DNA from: Dyella lipolytica | GTDB lineage: Bacteria > Pseudomonadota > Gammaproteobacteria > Xanthomonadales > Rhodanobacteraceae | Direction: 5' to 3' | DNA: 64,000 nt | NCBI RefSeq assembly: GCF_030160075.1 | Contig: NZ_BSNQ01000003.1 | Coordinates: forward strand, 1,734,328 to 1,798,327 | Shown here: piece by piece, positions 6,041 to 16,376 of the stretch | Position numbering within the stretch: position 1 is the first letter of the stretch | Layout: each line of letters begins with the position of its first letter | Position numbers and translations under genes: made by a program | The notes under the pieces: model-generated | The model's input: the letters and a program-made list of their open reading frames with translations, nothing else | Databases searched by the model: none | What the model was told of the DNA's origin: nothing

Positions 6041-7209
6041 GCTTCCAGCCCTCCTTGCGTTGTCTCAGGGTCGGTGCGGGTGGCCAGATCATCGCGGTGC
6101 ACGATCTCGGCGCCGTAGCTGTAGCCGAGCAATGACTCGATGTCGCGGCTATGGTGCCCGGCCAGGCGACGTACTTCCGATGCGCCGTACTGACACAGAC
6201 CGCGTGCGATGGCCCGATCGTCCGCGTCGACGATATCGACCAGATCGCCGCGATGAAACTCGCCTGCCACCTCAAGAATACCGCCGGGCAACAGCGACGC
6301 GCGACCGCCGAGGAGCGCACGCGCCGCGCCTGCATCGACACGGATATGTCCGTTGCCGCCCGGCGCATGATGCAACCAATATTTGCGGGCCTGCATCCGA
6401 TTGCCAGCGACATCGATGAGGGTGCCGTGCAAAGTGCCTTGCTCTAGCGCCTTAACCGTCGCCGCACCGCGTCCACCGAACAGCGCTGTGGGAATCCCGG
6501 CAGCGGCCGCCTTGGCGGCAGCCTGCAGTTTGGTTCGCATGCCGCCCGTGCCGACGCCGGTACCGCTGTCGGTAGCCATCGCGATCACCTCCGGCGTCAA
6601 CTGTGGCACGTGGCCGACAGGTACGGCGGTTGGGTCGCGACGCGGGTCGGCACTGTAAAGCGCATCCACGTCAGAGGCGATCAGCAGAAGGTCCGCATCC
6701 ACTAAGGCGGCGACGATGGCGGCAAGATTGTCGTTGTCGCCGAGCTTGAGTTCATCCACCGCTACGGTATCGTTTTCATTCACCACCGGCAGCACCCGCA
6801 ATGCGAGCAATTCTCGCAACGTGGCACGAGCGTTGAGATAACGCCGGCGATTGCGCAGGTCGTCGTGGGTGAGCAGCACCTGCGCCACCGGTCGATCGGA
6901 TAGCCCTTGCCACAACGCAATCATGGGTGCCTGACCGAGCGCCGCCAATGCCTGCCTCGCGACGAGATCGCCGCTGACCGCTGCATGTTCGCGCATCAGC
7001 GCACGACCAGCGGCCACCGCGCCGGAGGAAACCAGCACTATCTGGCGACCCGCAGCATGGCTGGCCACCATAAACGCCGACAACGCCTGTGCGTAGCGCG
7101 TAGTCAATCCGCCACCATCAGCGGCTAGCAGGTTACTGCCGACTTTAAGTACCGCACGTCGCCAGGCTGGCAACGCGCAAGTGGGTAGCAGGTGCGTCGA
7201 TACCGTCAT
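6037..7209 (-). CDS. proB: Glutamate 5-kinase with PUA domain
   Basis: ProB (390 residues) phosphorylates glutamate for proline synthesis and is normally inhibited by proline. The amino-acid kinase domain spans about 17-270, with VLKVGSNLL, the VSSGAVAAG loop and NENDTV. A C-terminal PUA domain covers about 290-370 ([22 protein letters not shown] region). The start overlaps the argH stop by 4 bp (ATGA). The argH-proB-proA linkage is typical of Xanthomonadales and joins proline synthesis to the arginine operon. Confidence 0.96.
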
Positions 7210-8510
7210 CGGATGCTGGGTTTCATCTCGGCAAGGCGTAACTTCAGCGCATCCAATCGCAAGTCGTTGCCGGCACCGGCGGACGTACGCGCCGCCAGAC
7301 TTGATTCAGGGGTACGCCCTTGCCCGGCTTCAGTCGCTGCCTGCGCCGCGGCACGATAGGCTTCGCGGAACGGTACGCCTGCCGCTGCCTGTTCGATCGC
7401 CACATCAGTGGCATACATCGCTGGCTCAATCGCGGCACGCATGGCTGCTTCGTTCCATTGCATGCGCGCGAGCAGATCCGGCAGCAGTTCGAGTGCAGCG
7501 AGTCCATGGGTGACGCCGTGAAACAACGAGCCTTTGGAGAACTGCAGATCGCGCTGATAGCCGGATGGCAACGACAGTAGCTGTTCGATTTCGCAGCGCG
7601 AGGCAGCTACCGTGGCATACGACGCACGCACCAGTTCCACGACGTCCGGGTTGCGCTTGTTGGGCATGATCGAACTGCCCGTGGTGTATTCCGACGGAAG
7701 CGTCACGAAATTGAATTCCGCGGTGGTGAACAACGACAGATCCCAGGCCAGGCGACGGGCATCCAGCATGGCGCTGCCCAGCGCTTCCATGACTGCCATC
7801 TCGAACTTGCCGCGCGAGAGTTGCGCATAGATTGGCGAAATCTGCATGCGCGCAAAACCGAGCGCTTGTGTGGTGTGCGCACGGTCGAGTGGCAGGTTGA
7901 CACCATAGCCGGCCGCGGTACCCAGTGGATTGGCGTCTATCCATGCCGCGGTTTGCCGGGCGCGCCAGGCGTTGTCGACAAATCCCTCGGCAAAGCCAGC
8001 AAACCACATCGCCGTAGACGAAACCACAGCGCGCTGAAGATGGGTGTAGCCCGGCAACGGAAGTGCCGATTGCGCAGCACGTTCCAGGCATACTTCGGCA
8101 ATCGAACGGCAATCCGTTTCCAGGACAGAGAGCTTGTCCTTCAGCCACAAGCGTGTTGCCACCAGGATCTGGTCGTTGCGGCTGCGACCGGTATGCACGC
8201 GACGGCCCGCATCGCCGAGACGCTCGGTCAATCGCGCCTCGATGGCCGAATGGCCGTCTTCGTAGCGCTCATCCAGCACGAAGCGGCCCGCACTAAAATC
8301 CTCCGCCAGCGCGTCCAGTTCGCGCTTGAGATCCTGCATCTCTTGTGCGCTGACGACGCCGATATGAGCCAATCCTTCGACATGCGCCTTGCTGGCGGTA
8401 ATGTCATGCAGAAAGAATTCGCGATCAAGCAGTACATCGTCGCCTGCCAGGAACTTCATGATTTTGGCGTTGGTTTCGACGCCGGCTTTTTGCCAAAGAA
8501 GATCGCTCAT
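7206..8510 (-). CDS. argH: Argininosuccinate lyase
   Basis: ArgH (434 residues) cleaves argininosuccinate to arginine and fumarate, the last step of the pathway. The family signature [15 protein letters not shown] is present, as are the HTGRSRND and TGSS blocks. I use ATG 8510 (MSDLLWQ), because the longer frame begins with a TTG at 8534 that has no family match. It follows argC after 39 bp and overlaps proB by 4 bp. Confidence 0.95.
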
Positions 8511-8549
8511 GGATTCTGTCTCTTGTATGCGCAACTCAACATTTTTCGG

Positions 8550-9503
8550 TCAGACCGGTATCGATGCGTATTCGTCCACGCCAATGGCGCGATTGATGTT
8601 CTGCATGGCCTGCGTGGCAGCACCCTTGAGCAGGTTGTCCAAGGTGGCTACGACGACGACACGCTTGCCATCGGTTGACATCGCGAAACCACCGATCTCG
8701 GCATGATGCTTGCCCGCGATCTGGCTCACCCACGGCGCCTCATCCAGCACGTGCACCAGCTTCTCGCTGCCATAAGCATGCTGGAAGCGTGCCTGCACCT
8801 CGTCGCGTTTAAGCGAGCGCGCAAGATAAAGATTGGTGGTAACAGTCAGACCACGGAAGTGCGGCGCGACATGCGGCATGAATTCCACCGGGATGCCGAG
8901 ATGCCGGCTGGCTTCCTTTTCATGCATGTGCCCGGTCAGCGCATACGGCATCAGGTTGTCACGCAGTTTCTCCGGATTGTTCTTATCCGAAGGTGTCGTG
9001 CCGGCGCCCGAATAGCCTGAGACGCCAAAACACACCGGCGGCGCGGCCAGCACATCCTTGAGCGGTGCGACGGACAGCTGGATGGCCGTGGCATAGCAGC
9101 CGGGATTGCTGATGCGTTTCTCGCCGCGCCACTTGCCGCGAGTGAGTTCCGGTAGACCGTAATACCATTGATTGTCGAAACGGTAGTCCGCGGAGAGATC
9201 CACGATAACCGGATCTTTTCCTGCAGCATTGAACGCCTCGACGCAGAGCGACGCCTTGCCATTCGGCAAAGCCAGCACGACAACGTCAGCATCCAGGCCC
9301 GGCAATGCTTCGTGCGCCGGCGAGCTGTAGCACAGGTCGCCATGGTATTCGGCGACATGCGCATCGACCCGCTGTCCGTCCAGCTCGCGGGAGGAGACAT
9401 AAGTCAACTCAAGCGCCGGATGGGCGGCAACCAGTCGAATCAATTCCGCGCCGGTATGCCCGCGTGCGCCGACGATGCCAATGCGTTTCTTCGATGCTGT
9501 CAT
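8550..9503 (-). CDS. argC: N-acetyl-gamma-glutamyl-phosphate reductase
   Basis: ArgC (317 residues) reduces N-acetylglutamyl phosphate to the semialdehyde with NADPH. It has a nucleotide fold at the N-terminus ([14 protein letters not shown]) and the active-site cysteine in SNPGCYATA. Two start codons lie side by side (GTG 9506, ATG 9503); I take the ATG. Only 6 bp separate it from the argB stop, so it is inside one transcript. Confidence 0.95.
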
Positions 9504-9509
9504 CACGAT

Positions 9510-10826
9510 TCAGTCCACCAGGGTCGGTTGCCGCACAGCGCAGTGGTCGACACAGCGCGCAATCGTTTCGAAGTCGTCCAAGCCATACCAGAACACTTTC
9601 CAGCGTTCCTGCTTGTAGCAACCGTCCGATTCGGCGTAATAGAAATGATTGATCTGGTTGCCATGACGCGAGCGCCAGAACAGGCGCGGATTTTCCTCGC
9701 GCATCACCAGCCATACCGCGCGGCCCAGACCTTCGCCTTGCGCGTCGTCGAGCACGGCAAACTTGTCCAAATAAATCAGGCCGTCCTGGTCGGTAAGAAT
9801 CATCGCCGCGCGATAGTTTTCGCTGACGTAGATTCTGTAAGGCGTGGTGCGCTCGAAGTAGTCATCGACCACCTTGCGGCCGAAACTCGATTCGATCAGC
9901 GTGCGCATGCGCGCGCGATCCACACCTTCCCAGCTTTCGAAACGGAAGACTTTCTCGCCACGACGCACCAGCGTGCCCGAACCCTTGTGCGTGAACAATT
10001 CTTTCGCCAGTTCCGCCGGGCGAGTGATCGATACCGAGGACGTCAGCGGCAGGCTTTGCAGCAAGTCCGCGATCTGTTCGATCTTCACGCGCATGCCGCC
10101 GTTGATCCACGGCTGCGACATCAGGTGATCGTACTCCGTGCTGAGATTGATCGAGTCGATGATGCGACCCTGATCGTCAAGCAACCCACCGGTGCCGGTA
10201 AGAAACACGATCTTGTAGGGCTGCAGCATGCGCACCAGCTCGTTGGCGGCGAAGTCGGCGTTGATGTTGAGGAACTGACCTTCATCCGTCTCGCCCAGGC
10301 TGGCGATCACCGGTATGGAGCCGGCGCGCAAGCTGGCCTCGATCGGCGCCAGGTTGATGCTGTCGACCTTGCCTACCATGCCGTAGACGTCCTTATCCAG
10401 ATAATTGGACATGAACACGCCCGATGGCACTGACGTAGCGCGCGTATCCATCGCCTGCAGGGCTTCGACCAGACGCAAATTCTGTTGCTGGAAAACACGG
10501 CGTACGATGCCCAGCGCCTTGGGCGATGTCACGCGCAAGCCGTTGACGGTTTGCTTGGTGATGCCGGCAGCCTGGAGTTCTTCGTCGAGCTGTGGACCTG
10601 CACCATGGAGAACGATCGGCGTGAGGCCCACTTGCTGCAGAAAGGTCAGCGACGACGTCAGGTCATTCAGTTCATCGCGCAGCACCGCACCGCCGACTTT
10701 GACTACGGCGAAGCGCTTGGCATCCTGCTGCGAAAAGCGCTTGAGGTACTGCTGGATTTCCTTGGCGCTGCCCATGGCGGAGAGCAGGCGCACAATGGTC
10801 TGGCGAGTGTTTTTATGCGATTCCAC
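9510..10826 (-). CDS. argB: Bifunctional N-acetylglutamate synthase/kinase (NAGS/K, fused kinase-GNAT)
   Basis: This 438-residue protein has an amino-acid kinase domain at about 30-290 ([35 protein letters not shown]). A GNAT-type acetyltransferase domain follows at about 300-435 ([37 protein letters not shown]). This matches the Xanthomonas-type enzyme, which both makes N-acetylglutamate from glutamate and phosphorylates it, so no separate argA is needed. The start is GTG 10826, which fits the family N-terminus, and overlaps the argE' stop by 14 bp. Arginine feedback on the family is known; nothing here shows its strength. Confidence 0.93.
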
Positions 10827-11913
10827 GGTTCACGATCTCGTAGATGGTTGCGGCATACGTCTGCAATTGGTCGAGCGCGACCCATTCGTCGGCGGTGTGT
10901 GCCTGGGCGATATCGCCCGGCCCATATACGAACGAGATATAACCGCCCGCTGAAAACAGCGCGGCCTCGGTCCAGAAATTCACCGCGTTTCCCACCGATA
11001 TGCCCAGCTCGTCGGCGATATCGCGTGCCGCAAGGCGTCGCGCTTCTGCCGTGGCGATATCGCCAGCCGGCAGCGATACACCGCGGAAAAGCTCGGTATA
11101 GGTCACTGGTTGCGGCTCCACCAAACTGCGGAAGGTCTCCAGCAACCGGTCTGGATCCATGCTCGGCAGCGGACGAAAACCGAATCGCACATCGGCGGTC
11201 GGCGCGATCATGTTGGCCTTGATGCCACCCTCGACACGGCCGATGTTGAAACGCAACCCAGTAAGGCCACCGAAACGCTCGTGCGCCTGGCGTTCGACGT
11301 AATCGAGCGCCGCTGTACCCCAGCGCACCGTCTGGTGTAAGGCGCTGTCGCTGGGACGTTGTTCACCCGATGCATGACCGGCCTGCCCCGCAAAACTCAT
11401 CTGCACGGAATGGATGCCGCGATGCGCGAGCACGGCCTCTCCGCGGGTGGGCTCGGCGACGATGACGGCATCGTACGGATGACCTTCGCGCAGAAAGGCA
11501 GCGATGCAGCGCGGATCGTTGGCTTCCTCGTCGGTAGTCAGCAACAAGGCCATATCGCCTTCGCTCGCATTCGCTACCGCAACTAAGGCAGCCGCGGCAC
11601 CCTTGATATCGCAGGCACCGAGACCGATAGCGCGATCGTTCATGACCTGCAGCGTGTGCGGATCGGTCGTCCAGTGCGGCGAATCGGGCACCGTATCCAG
11701 GTGCACGTTGAACAGGTACTTCGGCTTACCGCGCACGGCGTAGAGCGTCACAGCGCCCGCGCCGTGATCGGTAACCGTCACGTCGAAGCCGGGAAGCTGT
11801 TCGCGCAGATAGTCGAAGATACCGCCGGTGCCGATCGCACGCGGCGGATTGCGTGTGTCGTAGCCGACCAGCGCTTTCAGATGCGTCAACGTCGCTTCGA
11901 GCAGCATGCTCAT
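10813..11913 (-). CDS. argE': N-acetyl-L-citrulline deacetylase (ArgE')
   Basis: This 366-residue M20-family metallopeptidase removes acetate from N-acetylcitrulline to give citrulline. Zn-ligand blocks are visible: [31 protein letters not shown] and [15 protein letters not shown] call it the acetylcitrulline enzyme rather than acetylornithine deacetylase because the sequence matches the Xanthomonas enzyme closely and the operon carries the matching transcarbamylase (argF'). ATG 11913 overlaps the argG stop (ATGA); a second ATG at 11907 has a better spaced GAGG and is possible. Confidence 0.88.
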
Positions 11914-13103
11914 CCTCGGTTGACCTCGGCCCACAAGGTGCTGCTCATGCCGAACAGTTTGATAAAGCCTTCCGCTTCGGCCACACCCCAGTCGGCGGCC
12001 TGCGCATAAGTCGCGCCCTTGGCGTTGAGGATGTGCTTGGACTCGATCGCAACGGCATTGACGATGCCACCCGACGTCTCCAGCATCACGTCGCCGTTGA
12101 CTTGCGATTGGCTCGACGCCAGGAAGGCCTCCAGATCGGTCTTCAGCGGGTCGTGGAAGAAACCTTCATAAACCAACTCCACCCACTTGCGCGCCACCTC
12201 GGGCTTGAAGCGGTTCTGTTGTTTGGTGAGTACAGCCTCTTCGAGCGCACGATGCGCGACGAGCAGCGCAGTGAGGCCTGGCGCTTCGAAAATGATACGT
12301 CCCTTCAGGCCGATGGTGGTGTCACCGGTGTAGATGCCGCGACCCACGCCGTACTGCGCCAGAAGGTTGTTGAGTTTGGCCAGCATCTTATGGCCGTCGA
12401 TCTTTTCGCCATCCAGCGCAACGGCTTCGCCATCGACGAAACTGATCTTCAGGCGAAGCGATTTGGATGGCCATTCGGCACGCGGCTTGCACCAGCCTAC
12501 GGCGCCTTCGCCCGGCGCCTGCCAACGATCGATCTCGCCGCCGGACATGGTCAGACCGAGCAAGTTTTCGTTGATGGTGTAGGCCTTCTGCTTGGCGCGC
12601 ACGCCGAAGCCGAGGTCCTCGAGATACTTCTGCTCGTAAGCGCGCACCTCGGTGTGTTCTTTCTGGATTTCGCGGATCGGCGCCACGATCTCGTAATCGC
12701 CCTGCGCTTTCACCGCGAGGTCGAAACGCACCTGGTCATTGCCCATGCCGGTGCAGCCATGTGCGATCGCCTTGGTGCCCAGCTGCGCGCAGCGCTTCAG
12801 CGCGGCATCCACGATCAGGTAACGGTCGGAAACCAGCAGCGGATACTGGCCCTGATAACCCTCGCCTGCCCATACGAATGGTTTCACAAAGCCATTCCAG
12901 ATCGCCGGACCGCCATCGACGGTGACGTGGCTGGCCGCCTTCAGCTCTTTGGCGCGCGCTTCGATATAGGCACGCTCGTCGGCGTCGACGCCGCCGGTAT
13001 CGGCGAACACAGTGTGCACAGCCCAACCGCGTTGCTGCAGATACGGGATGCAGAAACTCGTGTCGAGGCCACCGGAAAAGGCGAGAACGATATCTTTGCT
13101 CAT
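11910..13103 (-). CDS. argG: Argininosuccinate synthase
   Basis: ArgG (397 residues) condenses citrulline and aspartate with ATP. The N-terminal PP-loop is visible ([11 protein letters not shown] at 8-18), as are [13 protein letters not shown] and the family core. The start at ATG 13103 (MSKDIVLAF) cuts off about 160 upstream residues of the open frame, which only shadow the OsmC gene. It sits 44 bp after the OsmC-like gene and overlaps argE' by 4 bp. Confidence 0.96.
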
Positions 13104-13147
13104 GATGCGTCGTCCAAAAGGGTTACTAATTAATAAGAGAAAGGGGT

Positions 13148-13624
13148 TTACACAGATTCGATGACAATGCGCGGTTCGCAGCGCACCGGAAAATTGACGG
13201 AGTTGGCGATGAAGCAGGCGTGATGGGCATCCTCGTGCACACTCGCGGCACGAACAGGGTCGCTCTCGGCCGTGATCGTCACCCGTGGGCGTAGCACGAC
13301 GTCGGTAAAGCGACCATCGTCTGTGCGTTCCACCAGCGTGCCTATGGCCGTGTCGACGTACGCAGTGACAACGACACCGGCGACAGCCGCCAAATGCAGG
13401 TACCAGAGCATGTGACAGCTGGATAGCGCGGCAACCAGCATGTCTTCCGGATTGTGCCGCGTTCCATCGCCACGGAAGGCGGCATCCGACGAACCGGCGA
13501 TGACGGGTTTGCCGACAACGTGCACTTCGTGCTCGCGTCCGTAACCCTGGTACGTTTTCGTGCCGTTGCCGTGATTGCCGGTCCATACCACTTCGACCGG
13601 ATACTGATGCTGCTTATGTCCCAT
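13148..13624 (-). CDS. OsmC-family protein
   Basis: This 158-residue OsmC/Ohr-fold protein has the two redox cysteines in [11 protein letters not shown] (about 70) and [10 protein letters not shown] (about 139). The family reduces organic peroxides with thiols. This branch is closer to the general OsmC-like proteins than to Ohr, whose true copy is at 55.9 kb. The start overlaps the end of the PaiB-like gene by 11 bp. It is carried in the arginine operon between argF' and argG without an obvious pathway role. Confidence 0.88.
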
Positions 13625-14246
13625 CGCGACGCTCCTCGGCTTGTTGCATCAAATCCGCCAGCTCGCTGTCGCGCCGGCCCGCGCGCGCGTTCAGCCCTTG
13701 CAGAACGCCTGCGCGATTGGCATCGGGATGATTCTGGCTCAGCTTGAACTTGCCCTCGATGCGGTCGATCGAGATCTCGATGCCGACGATGGCGCGCAGC
13801 ATTTTTTCAATGTGATCCTCCGGCGCATCGCTGACATGCCAGGGTTTCGGCTGGTCGGCTTCATGGCGTTCGGTCAGTCTTTCGAGCAACTGGCGCAACC
13901 ACACTTTGTCGTCCGTGACACGCAGGCGGCCGTGCACGTGTACGACGGCGTAGTTCCAGGTCGGCACTTCACGGCCTGTCTCATGTTTACTCGGATACCA
14001 GTTGGGACTGATGTAGCCGTCGGCAGCCTGGAAGATGACCAGCACTTGCGCGCCATCCGCCTTCGCTAGCTCGTTGCCACGCGCGACATGGCCATGCAGC
14101 AACTTGTCGCTGATCAGCTCGAACGGCAGATGATTGGCAACCAACTCCTCGGCGCCACGCATGACGATGGTGCCAAACGGGTAATCGCGAATCAGTGCGT
14201 GCAGCACGTCGACGCGGGTTTCGTGAAAAGATCCAGGCAAGTACAT
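13614..14246 (-). CDS. PaiB-type FMN-binding protein
   Basis: This 210-residue protein of the PaiB/FMN-binding split-barrel family starts MYLPGSFHETR. It contains the typical SPNWYPSKHETGREVPTWNYA-like core (about 80-100) and the C-terminal EGKFKLSQNH. Members were named as negative regulators in Bacillus, but many look like flavin enzymes. Function here is open. It lies 22 bp after argF' in the same operon. Confidence 0.85.
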   Translation of the reverse strand: MYLPGSFHETRVDVLHALIRDYPFGTIVMRGAEELVANHLPFELISDKLLHGHVARGNELAKADGAQVLVIFQAADGYISPNWYPSKHETGREVPTWNYAVVHVHGRLRVTDDKVWLRQLLERLTERHEADQPKPWHVSDAPEDHIEKMLRAIVGIEISIDRIEGKFKLSQNHPDANRAGVLQGLNARAGRRDSELADLMQQAEERRDGT

Positions 14247-14268: not shown

Positions 14269-15276
14269 TTATCGCTGTGCGATGAGTGAGGCCATCACCG
14301 CCTTCTGCACATGCAGGCGGTTTTCGGCTTCATCGATGGCGATGCAAGCGGGTGAATCCATCACCGCATCGGTTGCCTTGATGTTCCGGCGCAACGGCAG
14401 GCAGTGGCTGAAAACGCCATTGTTGGTCAGCGCCATCTTCGCCTCGTCGACGATGAAATGCTTGTGTGCGTCGCGGATCGGCTTTTCGTTCTCCCAATGA
14501 CCGAAGAACGGTAACGCGCCCCAGCTCTTCGCATAGACCACATCGGCGCCGCGATAGGCTTCCTCGATGTTGTGGCTGACCTTGAGCGAGCCGCCGTTTT
14601 CCTTAGCGTTCTGCGCGCCGAACGCCATGTAGCGTTCGTCCAGCACATAGTCGGGTGTTGGGCACAACAACGTAACGTCCATGCCCATCTTGGTGGCGAT
14701 CAGCAAAGCCGAATTGGCTACCGCTGTGTTCAGCGGCTTGGGATGGTAGGTCCAGGTAAGCACGTACTTGCGGCCGGTGAGATCCCCGAACCGTTCTTTC
14801 AGCGCCAGCGCGTGCGCCAGCTCCTGGCACGGGTGAGTGATCGTTTCCATGTTGATCACCGGCACCGTGGCATGTTGGGCGAACGCCTTGATCACGGCGT
14901 CTTCGCGGTCAACCGACCAGTCCTGGAACTTCGGAAAGGCACGCACTGCGATGAGATCCACGTAGCGGCTCAATACACGCGCGACCTCGGCGATGTGTTC
15001 TTCCGCCTCGCCGTCCATCACGACGTTCGGGCGGAATTCGATCGGCCATGCATCCTTGCCGGGCGAGAGCACGATGGCGTGGCCACCCAGATGAAACGCG
15101 CCAAGCTCGAAACTCGTGCGCGTACGCATCGACGGATTGAAGAACAGTAACGCCACCGACTTGCCAGCAAGCTGCTGACCGCGCGGCGAGCGCTTGAACG
15201 CAGTGGCCTGTTCCAGCAACGCGTCGATGTCGGCGCGACTGTAATCCTGCGTGGTGAGAAAGTGACGAAGCGACAT
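14269..15276 (-). CDS. argF': N-acetylornithine carbamoyltransferase (AOTCase)
   Basis: This 335-residue transcarbamylase is specific for N-acetylornithine and makes N-acetylcitrulline. The carbamoyl-phosphate loop SMRTRTSFE is at 49-57 and HPCQELAHAL at about 148-157. Glu92 in GEAEEHIAEV is the residue known to set acetylornithine preference, and Lys300 in LRRNIKATDAV aligns with the carboxylated lysine of the Xanthomonas enzyme. Ordinary ornithine transcarbamylases lack this Glu92 block. ATG 15276 (MSLRHFLTT) is preceded by GGAG. It is the first gene of the operon and lies directly behind a terminator hairpin and a leader ORF. Confidence 0.93.
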   Translation of the reverse strand: MSLRHFLTTQDYSRADIDALLEQATAFKRSPRGQQLAGKSVALLFFNPSMRTRTSFELGAFHLGGHAIVLSPGKDAWPIEFRPNVVMDGEAEEHIAEVARVLSRYVDLIAVRAFPKFQDWSVDREDAVIKAFAQHATVPVINMETITHPCQELAHALALKERFGDLTGRKYVLTWTYHPKPLNTAVANSALLIATKMGMDVTLLCPTPDYVLDERYMAFGAQNAKENGGSLKVSHNIEEAYRGADVVYAKSWGALPFFGHWENEKPIRDAHKHFIVDEAKMALTNNGVFSHCLPLRRNIKATDAVMDSPACIAIDEAENRLHVQKAVMASLIAQR

Positions 15277-15299: not shown

Positions 15300-15326
15300 A
15301 AAAAACCCGGCGCAAAGGCCGGGTTT
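15300..15326 (-). terminator. Intrinsic terminator in the argF' leader (attenuator terminator)
   Basis: Read on the minus strand, a perfect 9-bp stem AAACCCGGC / GCCGGGTTT (15326-15318 and 15311-15303) closes a 6-base loop and runs into six T's. It lies 24 bp before the argF' ATG, inside the leader rather than after a gene. Its 5' arm is also complementary to the end of the upstream leader ORF. Confidence 0.8.
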
Positions 15327-15369
15327 AGTCGTCGTATACACATGCAACGTGGCGACAGCCTACCCGGCC
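15317..15369 (-). promoter_or_regulatory. Candidate antiterminator of the argF' attenuator
   Basis: GGCCGGGT (15369-15362, minus strand, the last codons and stop of the leader ORF) is exactly complementary to ACCCGGCC (15324-15317), which is the 5' arm of the terminator. The two structures cannot form together. A ribosome stopped at the early Arg codons leaves the antiterminator free; one that reaches the stop codon would cover it. Confidence 0.5.
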
Positions 15370-15464
15370 GAATGTCGGTCCAGCGGTCGACGCGCACGCG
15401 ATGTCATGCCAGCGGCCATGCGGGCGCTGGTAAGCACGGTAGCGGTATAGACGGCTGCGGACAT
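15360..15464 (-). CDS. Putative 34-residue arginine leader peptide
   Basis: A short frame from ATG 15464 to TAG 15360 lies between the terminator of the upstream gene and the argF' attenuator. It encodes five arginines in 34 residues, four of them near the end in the run SRARRPLDRHSAG (codons CGT, CGT, CGA, CGA). Its last codons plus stop contain GGCCGGGT, which pairs perfectly with ACCCGGCC of the terminator's 5' arm. Upstream ribosome-site bases are weak. Arg codons are common in such G+C-rich DNA, so the coding claim rests mainly on the matching RNA structure. Confidence 0.45.
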   Translation of the reverse strand: MSAAVYTATVLTSARMAAGMTSRARRPLDRHSAG

Positions 15465-15517
15465 GGGGCTTCCGGGTGGTTGAACTTTAATCATGACTGG
15501 ATCTTCGTTGCCGTGCA

Positions 15518-15561
15518 ACAAAAAATTAAAGGCGACCGTGCCTAGGGCAACGGTCGCCTTT
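15518..15561 (-). terminator. Intrinsic terminator after the glycine-zipper gene
   Basis: A perfect 12-bp stem AAAGGCGACCGT / ACGGTCGCCTTT (15561-15550 and 15539-15528) has a 10-base loop. On the minus strand it is followed by AATTTTTTG. It ends the glycine-zipper transcript 20 bp after its stop and separates it from the argF' leader. Confidence 0.9.
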
Positions 15562-15580: not shown

Positions 15581-16153
15581 TCAGTCCGCCGGCGAAACGC
15601 TCACCCGCACGCGCAGACGCTCGCCGGGGTCGTAACTCAGACGCGACATATAGACATCGCCGTGATAGCGATACTCGACATCGTAGCCGATGATCTGGCG
15701 CTGCTCACTGACCTGGGTCCCCGGTTGGCAGACGGTCTGGTTGGAAACCGTGGAGCTACCCCCGCTGGCCACCGAGTTGCCGACCGCGCCACCGACCACG
15801 GCGCCACCCACGGTGGCGGCCGTGTTGCCACGGCCATGGCCGATGGTGCTGCCGAGCACGCCGCCAACGACGGCGCCCAGCACCGTGCCGATGCCCTTGT
15901 TGCTGGGTGTCTGCTGGACCACCTGCTGGTCATAGCACTGCTGCGTTGGCGTTGCGGTACGCGCCACTCCGTAGACCGGGTCCACACGCAACACATCGGC
16001 CCAGGCATAGTGCGCATTGTCAGCACCCGGCGGAGGCGCACCGGCTCCCTGGGGCGGTGGCGGCGGATAACCATAACCGCCGTCCTGCGCCATCACGCCG
16101 GTGGATACCACGGCGAGTGCAAGCAGGGGAACCAACAGCATCTTTCTGTTCAC
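15581..16153 (-). CDS. Glycine-zipper (2TM) envelope protein
   Basis: This 190-residue exported protein has a signal peptide at 1-22 (ends GVMAQ), then a Pro/Gly-rich linker. A glycine-zipper block follows at about 85-125 (GIGTVLGAVVGGVLGSTIG, then a second GGAVVGGAVG), as in the 17-kDa surface-antigen/SlyB-like group. The C-terminal domain has a QRQIIGYDVEYRY-type strand. Role in the outer membrane is likely but unproven. The start is GTG 16153 with GGAGG eight bases upstream; the TTG at 16168 would overlap that site. It is a monocistronic unit with its own terminator. Confidence 0.82.
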   Translation of the reverse strand: MNRKMLLVPLLALAVVSTGVMAQDGGYGYPPPPPQGAGAPPPGADNAHYAWADVLRVDPVYGVARTATPTQQCYDQQVVQQTPSNKGIGTVLGAVVGGVLGSTIGHGRGNTAATVGGAVVGGAVGNSVASGGSSTVSNQTVCQPGTQVSEQRQIIGYDVEYRYHGDVYMSRLSYDPGERLRVRVSVSPAD

Positions 16154-16376
16154 AGATAACCTCCACAAGGGGGCATGAAAAGCGCCATTTGCGCATAGTG
16201 GGATTGCAGCAAACGCACGCTGAATCCAGGCTTAGAACTGCCGTAACTAAATGAGCTGTTCACGGCCTCCGCTCACAGTCTTCAGGACACAGGTTCCCAT
16301 ACATGCACACAGCTGTGCCGCAAGACCTTGATAAGATGACCGACTAACCCGCGCCACCACCCTCGGACCACGCATC

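Follow-up and report, generated by a model that had tools for sequence, protein, structure and literature searches.

We found that the arginine operon in the window (the whole 64-kb stretch of DNA analyzed here) is preceded by a leader that is very probably a ribosome-mediated transcription attenuator sensing charged tRNA-Arg. A short ORF, its frame kept and its core changing silently among relatives, stands before this biosynthetic operon, and it carries control codons for the end product (RARR is fixed in families f1–f4 of the order, and clusters of Arg codons take its place elsewhere). An antiterminator and an intrinsic terminator are predicted to pair in mutually exclusive ways, and in the window a stall site and the stop codon are positioned to free or cover the antiterminator strand, S2. 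The device is spread more widely than Dyella, Rhodanobacter, Luteibacter and Xanthomonas.

The Leader Region in the Window

The original prediction of a 34-codon ORF with four Arg codons among its last twelve was confirmed (Table 1). The product of the ORF is MSAAVYTATVLTSARMAAGMTSRARRPLDRHSAG, which has five Arg, four of them within those last twelve codons. The exact complementarity claimed between GGCCGGGT (15369-15362) and ACCCGGCC of the terminator 5' arm also holds. The terminator stem has the nine pairs described earlier, with a loop of 6; the six-T tail was overstated, as three of the six T's after GGG pair with AAA and only three lie past the stem.

Table 1. Features of the leader and the arginine operon in the window.
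Feature	Position	Strand	Basis or remark
-35-like box TTGCAC	15513..15518	(-)	TTGCNN-N17-NANNNT pattern in leaders; putative start site
-10-like box CATGAT	15490..15495	(-)	17 nt from the -35 box; promoter pattern in leaders
GGAAG, ribosome-binding-site-like	15469..15473	(-)	seen in the sequence
Leader peptide ORF, 34 codons	15360..15464	(-)	stop TAG at 15362-15360
MTSRARR core	15387..15407	(-)	conservation across leaders
Control codons CGT GCG CGT CGA (R23-A-R25-R26)	15398-15387	(-)	nearly invariant CGA at 15389-15387
S2 antiterminator strand GGCCGGGT	15362..15369	(-)	overlaps the last ORF codons and the first stop base
Antiterminator hairpin, S2 to terminator 5' arm	15317..15369	(-)	predicted -24.2 kcal/mol
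Intrinsic terminator stem-loop, then T-rich tail	15303..15326	(-)	terminator scan, folding
argF', N-acetylornithine carbamoyltransferase, first gene of the operon	14269..15276	(-)	NF003384
Remaining co-directional cluster	7206..14246	(-)	gene annotation; putative co-transcription

The argF' product scored 605.7 bits against NF003384 (cut-off 288), and its nearest solved chains have the same name. The cluster after it encodes an FMN-binding-domain protein, an OsmC-like protein, argG, argE, argB (whose product is of the acetylglutamate kinase type), argC and argH. The product of the gene upstream of the leader (window 15581-16168) is a protein with a glycine-zipper 2TM domain (PF05433). In locus L047 of family f6, argF' is likewise preceded by a reading frame similar to this gene, so the neighborhood around argF' seems, from its sequence, to be an old one.

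The promoter-like pair TTGCNN-N17-NANNNT was present upstream of 213 of 242 leaders (0 of 8 in f4), compared with 0.4% of shuffled regions, and the commonest -10 box was CATGAT (61 leaders). A GGAA similar to that of the window is present in several f1 leaders. Translation from ATG 15494 was disfavored because that codon overlaps the conserved -10 box. Upstream hairpins, as candidates for a 1:2 pause hairpin, appear in folds of the window leader.

Could the arrangement be a spurious ORF in GC-rich DNA that happens to lie beside an ordinary terminator? The statistics of the single sequence would allow it: the region contains 1 terminator-like site when 1.3 are expected from shuffles, the fold of the whole window leader is not unusually stable (z -1.23), and the Arg count is, as was rightly cautioned earlier, weak evidence by itself. 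On the other hand, the PF05433 gene appears by eye to have its own hairpin and T-run (~15561-15522), which the terminator scan did not call, and the leader is conserved across the order with silent changes. It is this conservation, not the single-sequence statistics, that places the leader far above chance, and on this ground we rejected a chance origin, to which we give practically no credence.

Conservation Upstream of argF'

In an argF'-anchored set (regions upstream of argF' from 61 relatives), MTSRARR was present in all 46 genomes of families f1–f4 (37 f1, 3 f2, 3 f3 and 3 f4). The loss of the ORF in close relatives, which the original prediction had named as an outcome that would count against it, was thus not seen. 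As to the individual control codons proposed earlier, R23-A-R25-R26 are conserved and R15 and R30 are variable.

Furthermore, a degenerate DNA motif for GMTSRARRP was matched in 241 of 398 genomes of the order; among the matches listed, it occurred once per genome and the reversed control had none. In f2 it was found in 95 of 119 genomes, one of which (G363) has a chance match elsewhere. When the 24 motif-less f2 genomes and G363 were searched with argF', 21 of the 25 gave a full-length match (one with an internal stop), and MTSRARR was present in 20 of 20 usable upstream regions from f2 genomes without the strict motif, with the Pro mostly replaced by another residue. The argF' search found no proper argF' in f2 genomes G409, G427, G429 and G457.

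The argF' gene starts within 500 nt of the motif in 250 of 261 motif loci. The remaining 11 comprise L141 and L174, which look like chance; L034, L035 and L046, which contain only ~100 nt of argF' and are invisible to the 500-nt test; L194, L207, L231, L261 and L274, which end soon after the motif; and L184. In locus L085 (G043), the leader ORF occurs twice upstream of argF', as near-identical tandem copies ~190 nt apart with an N between them, either by duplication or as an assembly artefact.

Outside the order, a looser 20-base core was matched in 2 of 364 genomes of the class, with no argF' within the 1.9-2.6 kb around these two matches. The match in a Deltaproteobacteria MAG (L174, among the matches listed from at least 119 stretches in the scan of named genomes) is in a reading frame of another kind, close to where the locus ends; it looks like chance and was rejected.

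Other Leaders and the Distribution of ArgR

Families f5, f7, f8, f11 and part of f10 have no MTSRARR and carry other Arg-rich leaders before the same RNA switch, among them RRRR, RRRRR, RRLRRP, RHLRRP/S, RRARRTRRP and others. In each of the 29 deduplicated f8 regions, a terminator was called together with an ORF whose last 22 residues include at least 3 Arg. In f10, a terminator and an Arg-rich ORF were found in 10 of 30 regions; 14 had no called terminator, 3 were doubtful, and 3 (L344, L346 and L348) had a called argF' terminator without a called Arg-rich leader ORF. The script used for these families took the ORF with the most Arg, so the peptides are favorably picked, and the fixed distance to S2 described below therefore serves as the independent support. 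No such leader was found in f6 (1 genome examined, no called terminator) or in f12 (2 genomes examined), and the two f9 genomes have no proper argF'.

The original prediction had set the leader against the usual picture of arginine operons repressed by ArgR, and this picture proved inapplicable here. Only 4 of 100 relatives, each of them in f12, had a match to the ArgR C-terminal domain (PF02863); the genome of the window had none, and control by ArgR was rejected. The f12 loci (L081-L084, L091 and L092) belong to the only relatives with an ArgR domain, and their argF-type protein is more distant. Judged by its sequences, f12 seems to have exchanged one regulator for the other, as it has the ArgR domain and neither of the two genomes examined has the leader.

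The RNA Switch

Of the 242 MTSRARR leaders, 240 had a called terminator. The best duplex between S2 and the terminator arm had a mean energy of -13.4 kcal/mol in these 240, and dinucleotide shuffles gave -8.5 (sd 2.2). The real duplex beat all 20 shuffles in 160 leaders; in the other 80, at least one shuffle equalled or surpassed it. Similarly, 44 leaders of other families gave -13.7 kcal/mol compared with -7.8 (sd 2.1), with none of 50 shuffles as good in 28 and at least one in 16.

The spacing is also kept. The S2 core begins 18 nt past RARR in 189 of 206 leaders, a count from which 34 of the 240 were dropped because the search form did not fit S2 (30) or the terminator arm (4). In the other families, S2 starts 18 nt after the last Arg of the cluster in 20 of 44 leaders and 15 nt after it in 8, the rest lying at 2 to 22 nt. 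In the window the distance after CGA is 17 nt and the stop overlaps S2; some f4 and f8 leaders have the stop before S2 or well behind it. Furthermore, most f1 and f2 leaders read S2 as Ala-Gly-stop, many of those in f8 read it as Gly-Trp-Val, and in some of f4 it lies past the stop. This reading in different frames indicates that S2 is kept as RNA, not for coding.

At the variable pair, the bases in S2, the 5' arm and the 3' arm (n = 206) were C/G/C in 97 leaders, T/A/T in 89, T/G/C (a wobble) in 12, C/A/T in 5 and T/A/C in 3. S2 and the arm are Watson-Crick paired in 189 of 206, compared with a mean of 103 (maximum 129) over 2000 random reassignments of the letters. On a tree of 166 taxa, the two terminator arms changed together on 8 branches, S2 and the arm together on 1, S2 alone on 5 and the arm alone on 9. 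Independent covariation support for the antiterminator is thus thin, and the case leans more on the spacing, the independence from frame and the unrelated peptides. Of the comparison with relatives proposed in the original prediction, the frame, the Arg codons and both stems are borne out as largely kept, but independent compensated changes in the antiterminator are few (this 1 branch).

In the window, the predicted folding energies were -24.2 kcal/mol for the antiterminator segment and -14.9 kcal/mol for the terminator. Before the 3' arm exists, the predicted fold is the antiterminator (-25.6 kcal/mol), and with all of the RNA it is the terminator with small hairpins (-28.1 kcal/mol). Since the terminator fold wins in the complete RNA, the switch must be kinetic.

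From the anatomy, the conservation, the spacing and the two alternative pairings, we infer stalling, termination and an arginine response, which would proceed as follows. RNA polymerase would initiate shortly before the leader ORF, and a ribosome would follow it. When charged tRNA-Arg is scarce, the ribosome would stall within CGT-GCG-CGT-CGA and leave S2 outside its footprint, so that S2 could pair with the terminator 5' arm once this is made; the pairing would block the terminator, and argF' would be transcribed. When arginine is plentiful, the ribosome would reach the stop and cover S2, the terminator would form, and transcription would end. A ribosome with CGA in the A site should cover ~10 nt downstream; with this footprint, S2 would be free at the CGA stall and covered at the stop.

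Selection on the Peptide and the CGA Codon

MTSRARR is fixed across the 242 deduplicated leaders, a set collected with the motif itself; the subsets free of this selection are the 46 genomes of f1–f4 and the 20 f2 genomes described above. On an argF' tree of 196 of these 242 taxa, namely those that were free of N and had 300 or more aligned residues, amino-acid changes were absent from codons -6, -3 and 0 to +6. Third-position changes at the same time numbered 37 at Ala -3, 50 at Thr +1, 23 at Arg +3, 27 at Ala +4 and 35 at Arg +5, and the codons that flank the core changed their amino acid dozens of times.

The last Arg codon of the core is CGA in 237 of 242 leaders, and the tree shows 4 changes of its third base; among the Arg codons of argF' in these groups, CGA has a share of 1.6-2.3%. 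The Ser codon is TCG in 233 of 242 leaders and Ala -6 is GCC in 235 of 242, a bias that indicates some constraint at the nucleotide level as well. A small hairpin between TCG and CGA might be the cause of the invariant CGA, but it is predicted at only -2.4 to -3.8 kcal/mol, and CGA is enriched in unrelated leaders too: in 43 leaders of other families it accounts for 79 of 230 Arg codons, compared with 6.7% (f8) and 7.2% (f10) in argF' genes.

All 46 tRNA hits in the genome of the window were typed, and the Arg anticodons are ACG, TCT, CCT and CCG, with no TCG; a single inosine tRNA therefore presumably reads CGU, CGC and CGA. In a Salmonella his-leader assay, as described in the part of the report consulted (PMC4046918), translation of CGA was slower than that of CGU and CGC, and strong de-attenuation was seen with Arg pairs containing CGA. 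A theoretical treatment, in the part consulted, holds that the sensitivity of an attenuator is set by codon choice (PMC1183508). The frozen core with its near-obligatory CGA suggests a contribution of the nascent peptide to the pause, and with the invariant core and the slow CGA the pause probably lasts longer and responds more sensitively.

Could the nascent chain itself be the sensor? The chain would then bind arginine, ornithine or N-acetylornithine in the tunnel and arrest, and the switch would read this arrest, not tRNA charging. SpeFL is known to arrest in response to ornithine binding. The lack of any amino-acid change at codons -6, -3 and 0 to +6, with 23-50 silent changes at several of them, speaks for such a sensor, and orf34/SpeFL, described in the part of that report consulted as a conserved leader with consecutive Arg codons, is a precedent (PMC6386406). 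On the other hand, f5, f7, f8, f10 and f11 retain the switch with peptides that are quite unlike and have mainly Arg codons in common, which fits codon sensing, and the preference for CGA acts at the codon level. We consider a sensor of this kind unlikely and regard charged tRNA-Arg as the more probable signal. A dual input is a possibility that we raise tentatively from these sequence patterns: the invariant chain A..A.GMTSRAR and the slow CGA would set a programmed pause released by Arg-tRNA, making the leader an arrest peptide with the regulated amino acid as its A-site substrate, used across the order in place of ArgR.

The Leader and sRNA-Xoo5

In Xanthomonas and Stenotrophomonas loci, the leader falls under the Rfam family RF02242, with scores of 101-147 bits on the leaders of these genera and of other f2 loci. 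Its cut-off of 50 bits was reached by 5 of 15 sources in one scan and by 5 of 5 in another; the f2 loci L120 and L125 fell below it, as did the window leader, at 26.8 bits with the covariance model. RF02242 is typed as an sRNA gene, yet it contains the conserved coding frame and the antiterminator strand, and the model ends before the terminator.

As the part of the report consulted describes it, sRNA-Xoo5 of X. oryzae lies before PXO_00353, a gene named N-acetylornithine carbamoyltransferase elsewhere in the same paper (PMC3039613). The description presents Xoo5 as a non-coding sRNA and is silent on an ORF, an attenuator or a link to arginine; the words 'arginine', 'argF' and 'leader' are absent from the main text. 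In the Rfam model, the RACE 5' end of Xoo5 falls two nt ahead of the ATG, so ribosomes may translate the Xanthomonas leader from an RNA with hardly any 5' leader. The clone is 124 nt and the reported bands are ~130 and ~100 nt (PMC3039613, part consulted), all shorter than the ~159 nt obtained for X. vasicola by visual counting as far as the last T of the T-run; our guess is that processing explains the difference.

The leader RNA might instead act mainly in trans as an sRNA, with the terminator as its own 3' end, and the growth-phase-dependent Northern bands and the 5' RACE end in the part of the report consulted (PMC3039613) would agree with this. However, the RNA encodes a peptide under protein-level selection, it is followed by argF' in 250 of 261 motif loci, its S2 has an alternative pairing with the terminator arm, and the Xoo5 clone stops short of the terminator. 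A mainly trans-acting role is accordingly very improbable, and a cis-acting attenuator remains our reading of the RNA.

An X. oryzae mutant in sRNA-Xoo1 showed decreased protein spots for argF' (PXO_00353, by 1.7-fold) and for argininosuccinate synthase (PXO_00352, by 3.25-fold) (Table 4 of PMC3039613, a report consulted in part), hinting at a further input to the arginine operon.

Discussion

Leader-peptide attenuators of his, trp and leu are known from enterobacteria. The leader described here has in common with them an ORF with control codons, a strand shared by antiterminator and terminator, and a stop near that strand. It is unlike them in the proposed sensing of arginine, in a core frozen at the protein level and in one slow codon that is nearly obligatory. 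In gammaproteobacteria, leader-based control of an arginine-related operon is known from the carAB attenuator of Pseudomonas; that operon encodes carbamoyl phosphate synthase, unlike the argF' operon.

Among the reports found, the closest functional relative is orf34/SpeFL of speF in Salmonella and E. coli, which in the part of the report consulted is likewise a conserved 34-codon leader with consecutive Arg codons that controls an arginine-related gene (PMC6386406). As described there, it differs in its peptide, in working through Rho, RNA structure and RNase G, and in letting speF be induced, and no intrinsic terminator was found. In the RAPP and SecM arrest peptides, according to the parts of two reports consulted (PMC10951233; PMC12992588), Arg-Ala occupies the two residues before the P-site residue, as it would here if the pause has CGA in the A site. 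The leader would have Arg in both the P site and the A site, whereas RAPP and SecM have Pro/Gly in both, and it reads R-A-R then R, which does not match the RA(P/G)P arrest motif. We regard the likeness as a resemblance only.

A full-text search of open-licence papers turned up no description of an arginine attenuator preceding argF' in this order, and none is mentioned in the parts consulted of two broad surveys (PMC2965389; PMC8632094). By its predicted architecture, the leader is a classical attenuator; for its amino acid and operon, the literature found has no described case.

These results offer a possible answer to how arginine synthesis is controlled without ArgR in much of the order, including soil bacteria, plant pathogens and Stenotrophomonas, and they give the catalogued sRNA Xoo5 a proposed identity. 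Selection at the protein level is seen on an attenuator peptide and, within it, on one rare codon. Consequently, nascent-chain effects in attenuators and tuning by slow codons become directly testable.
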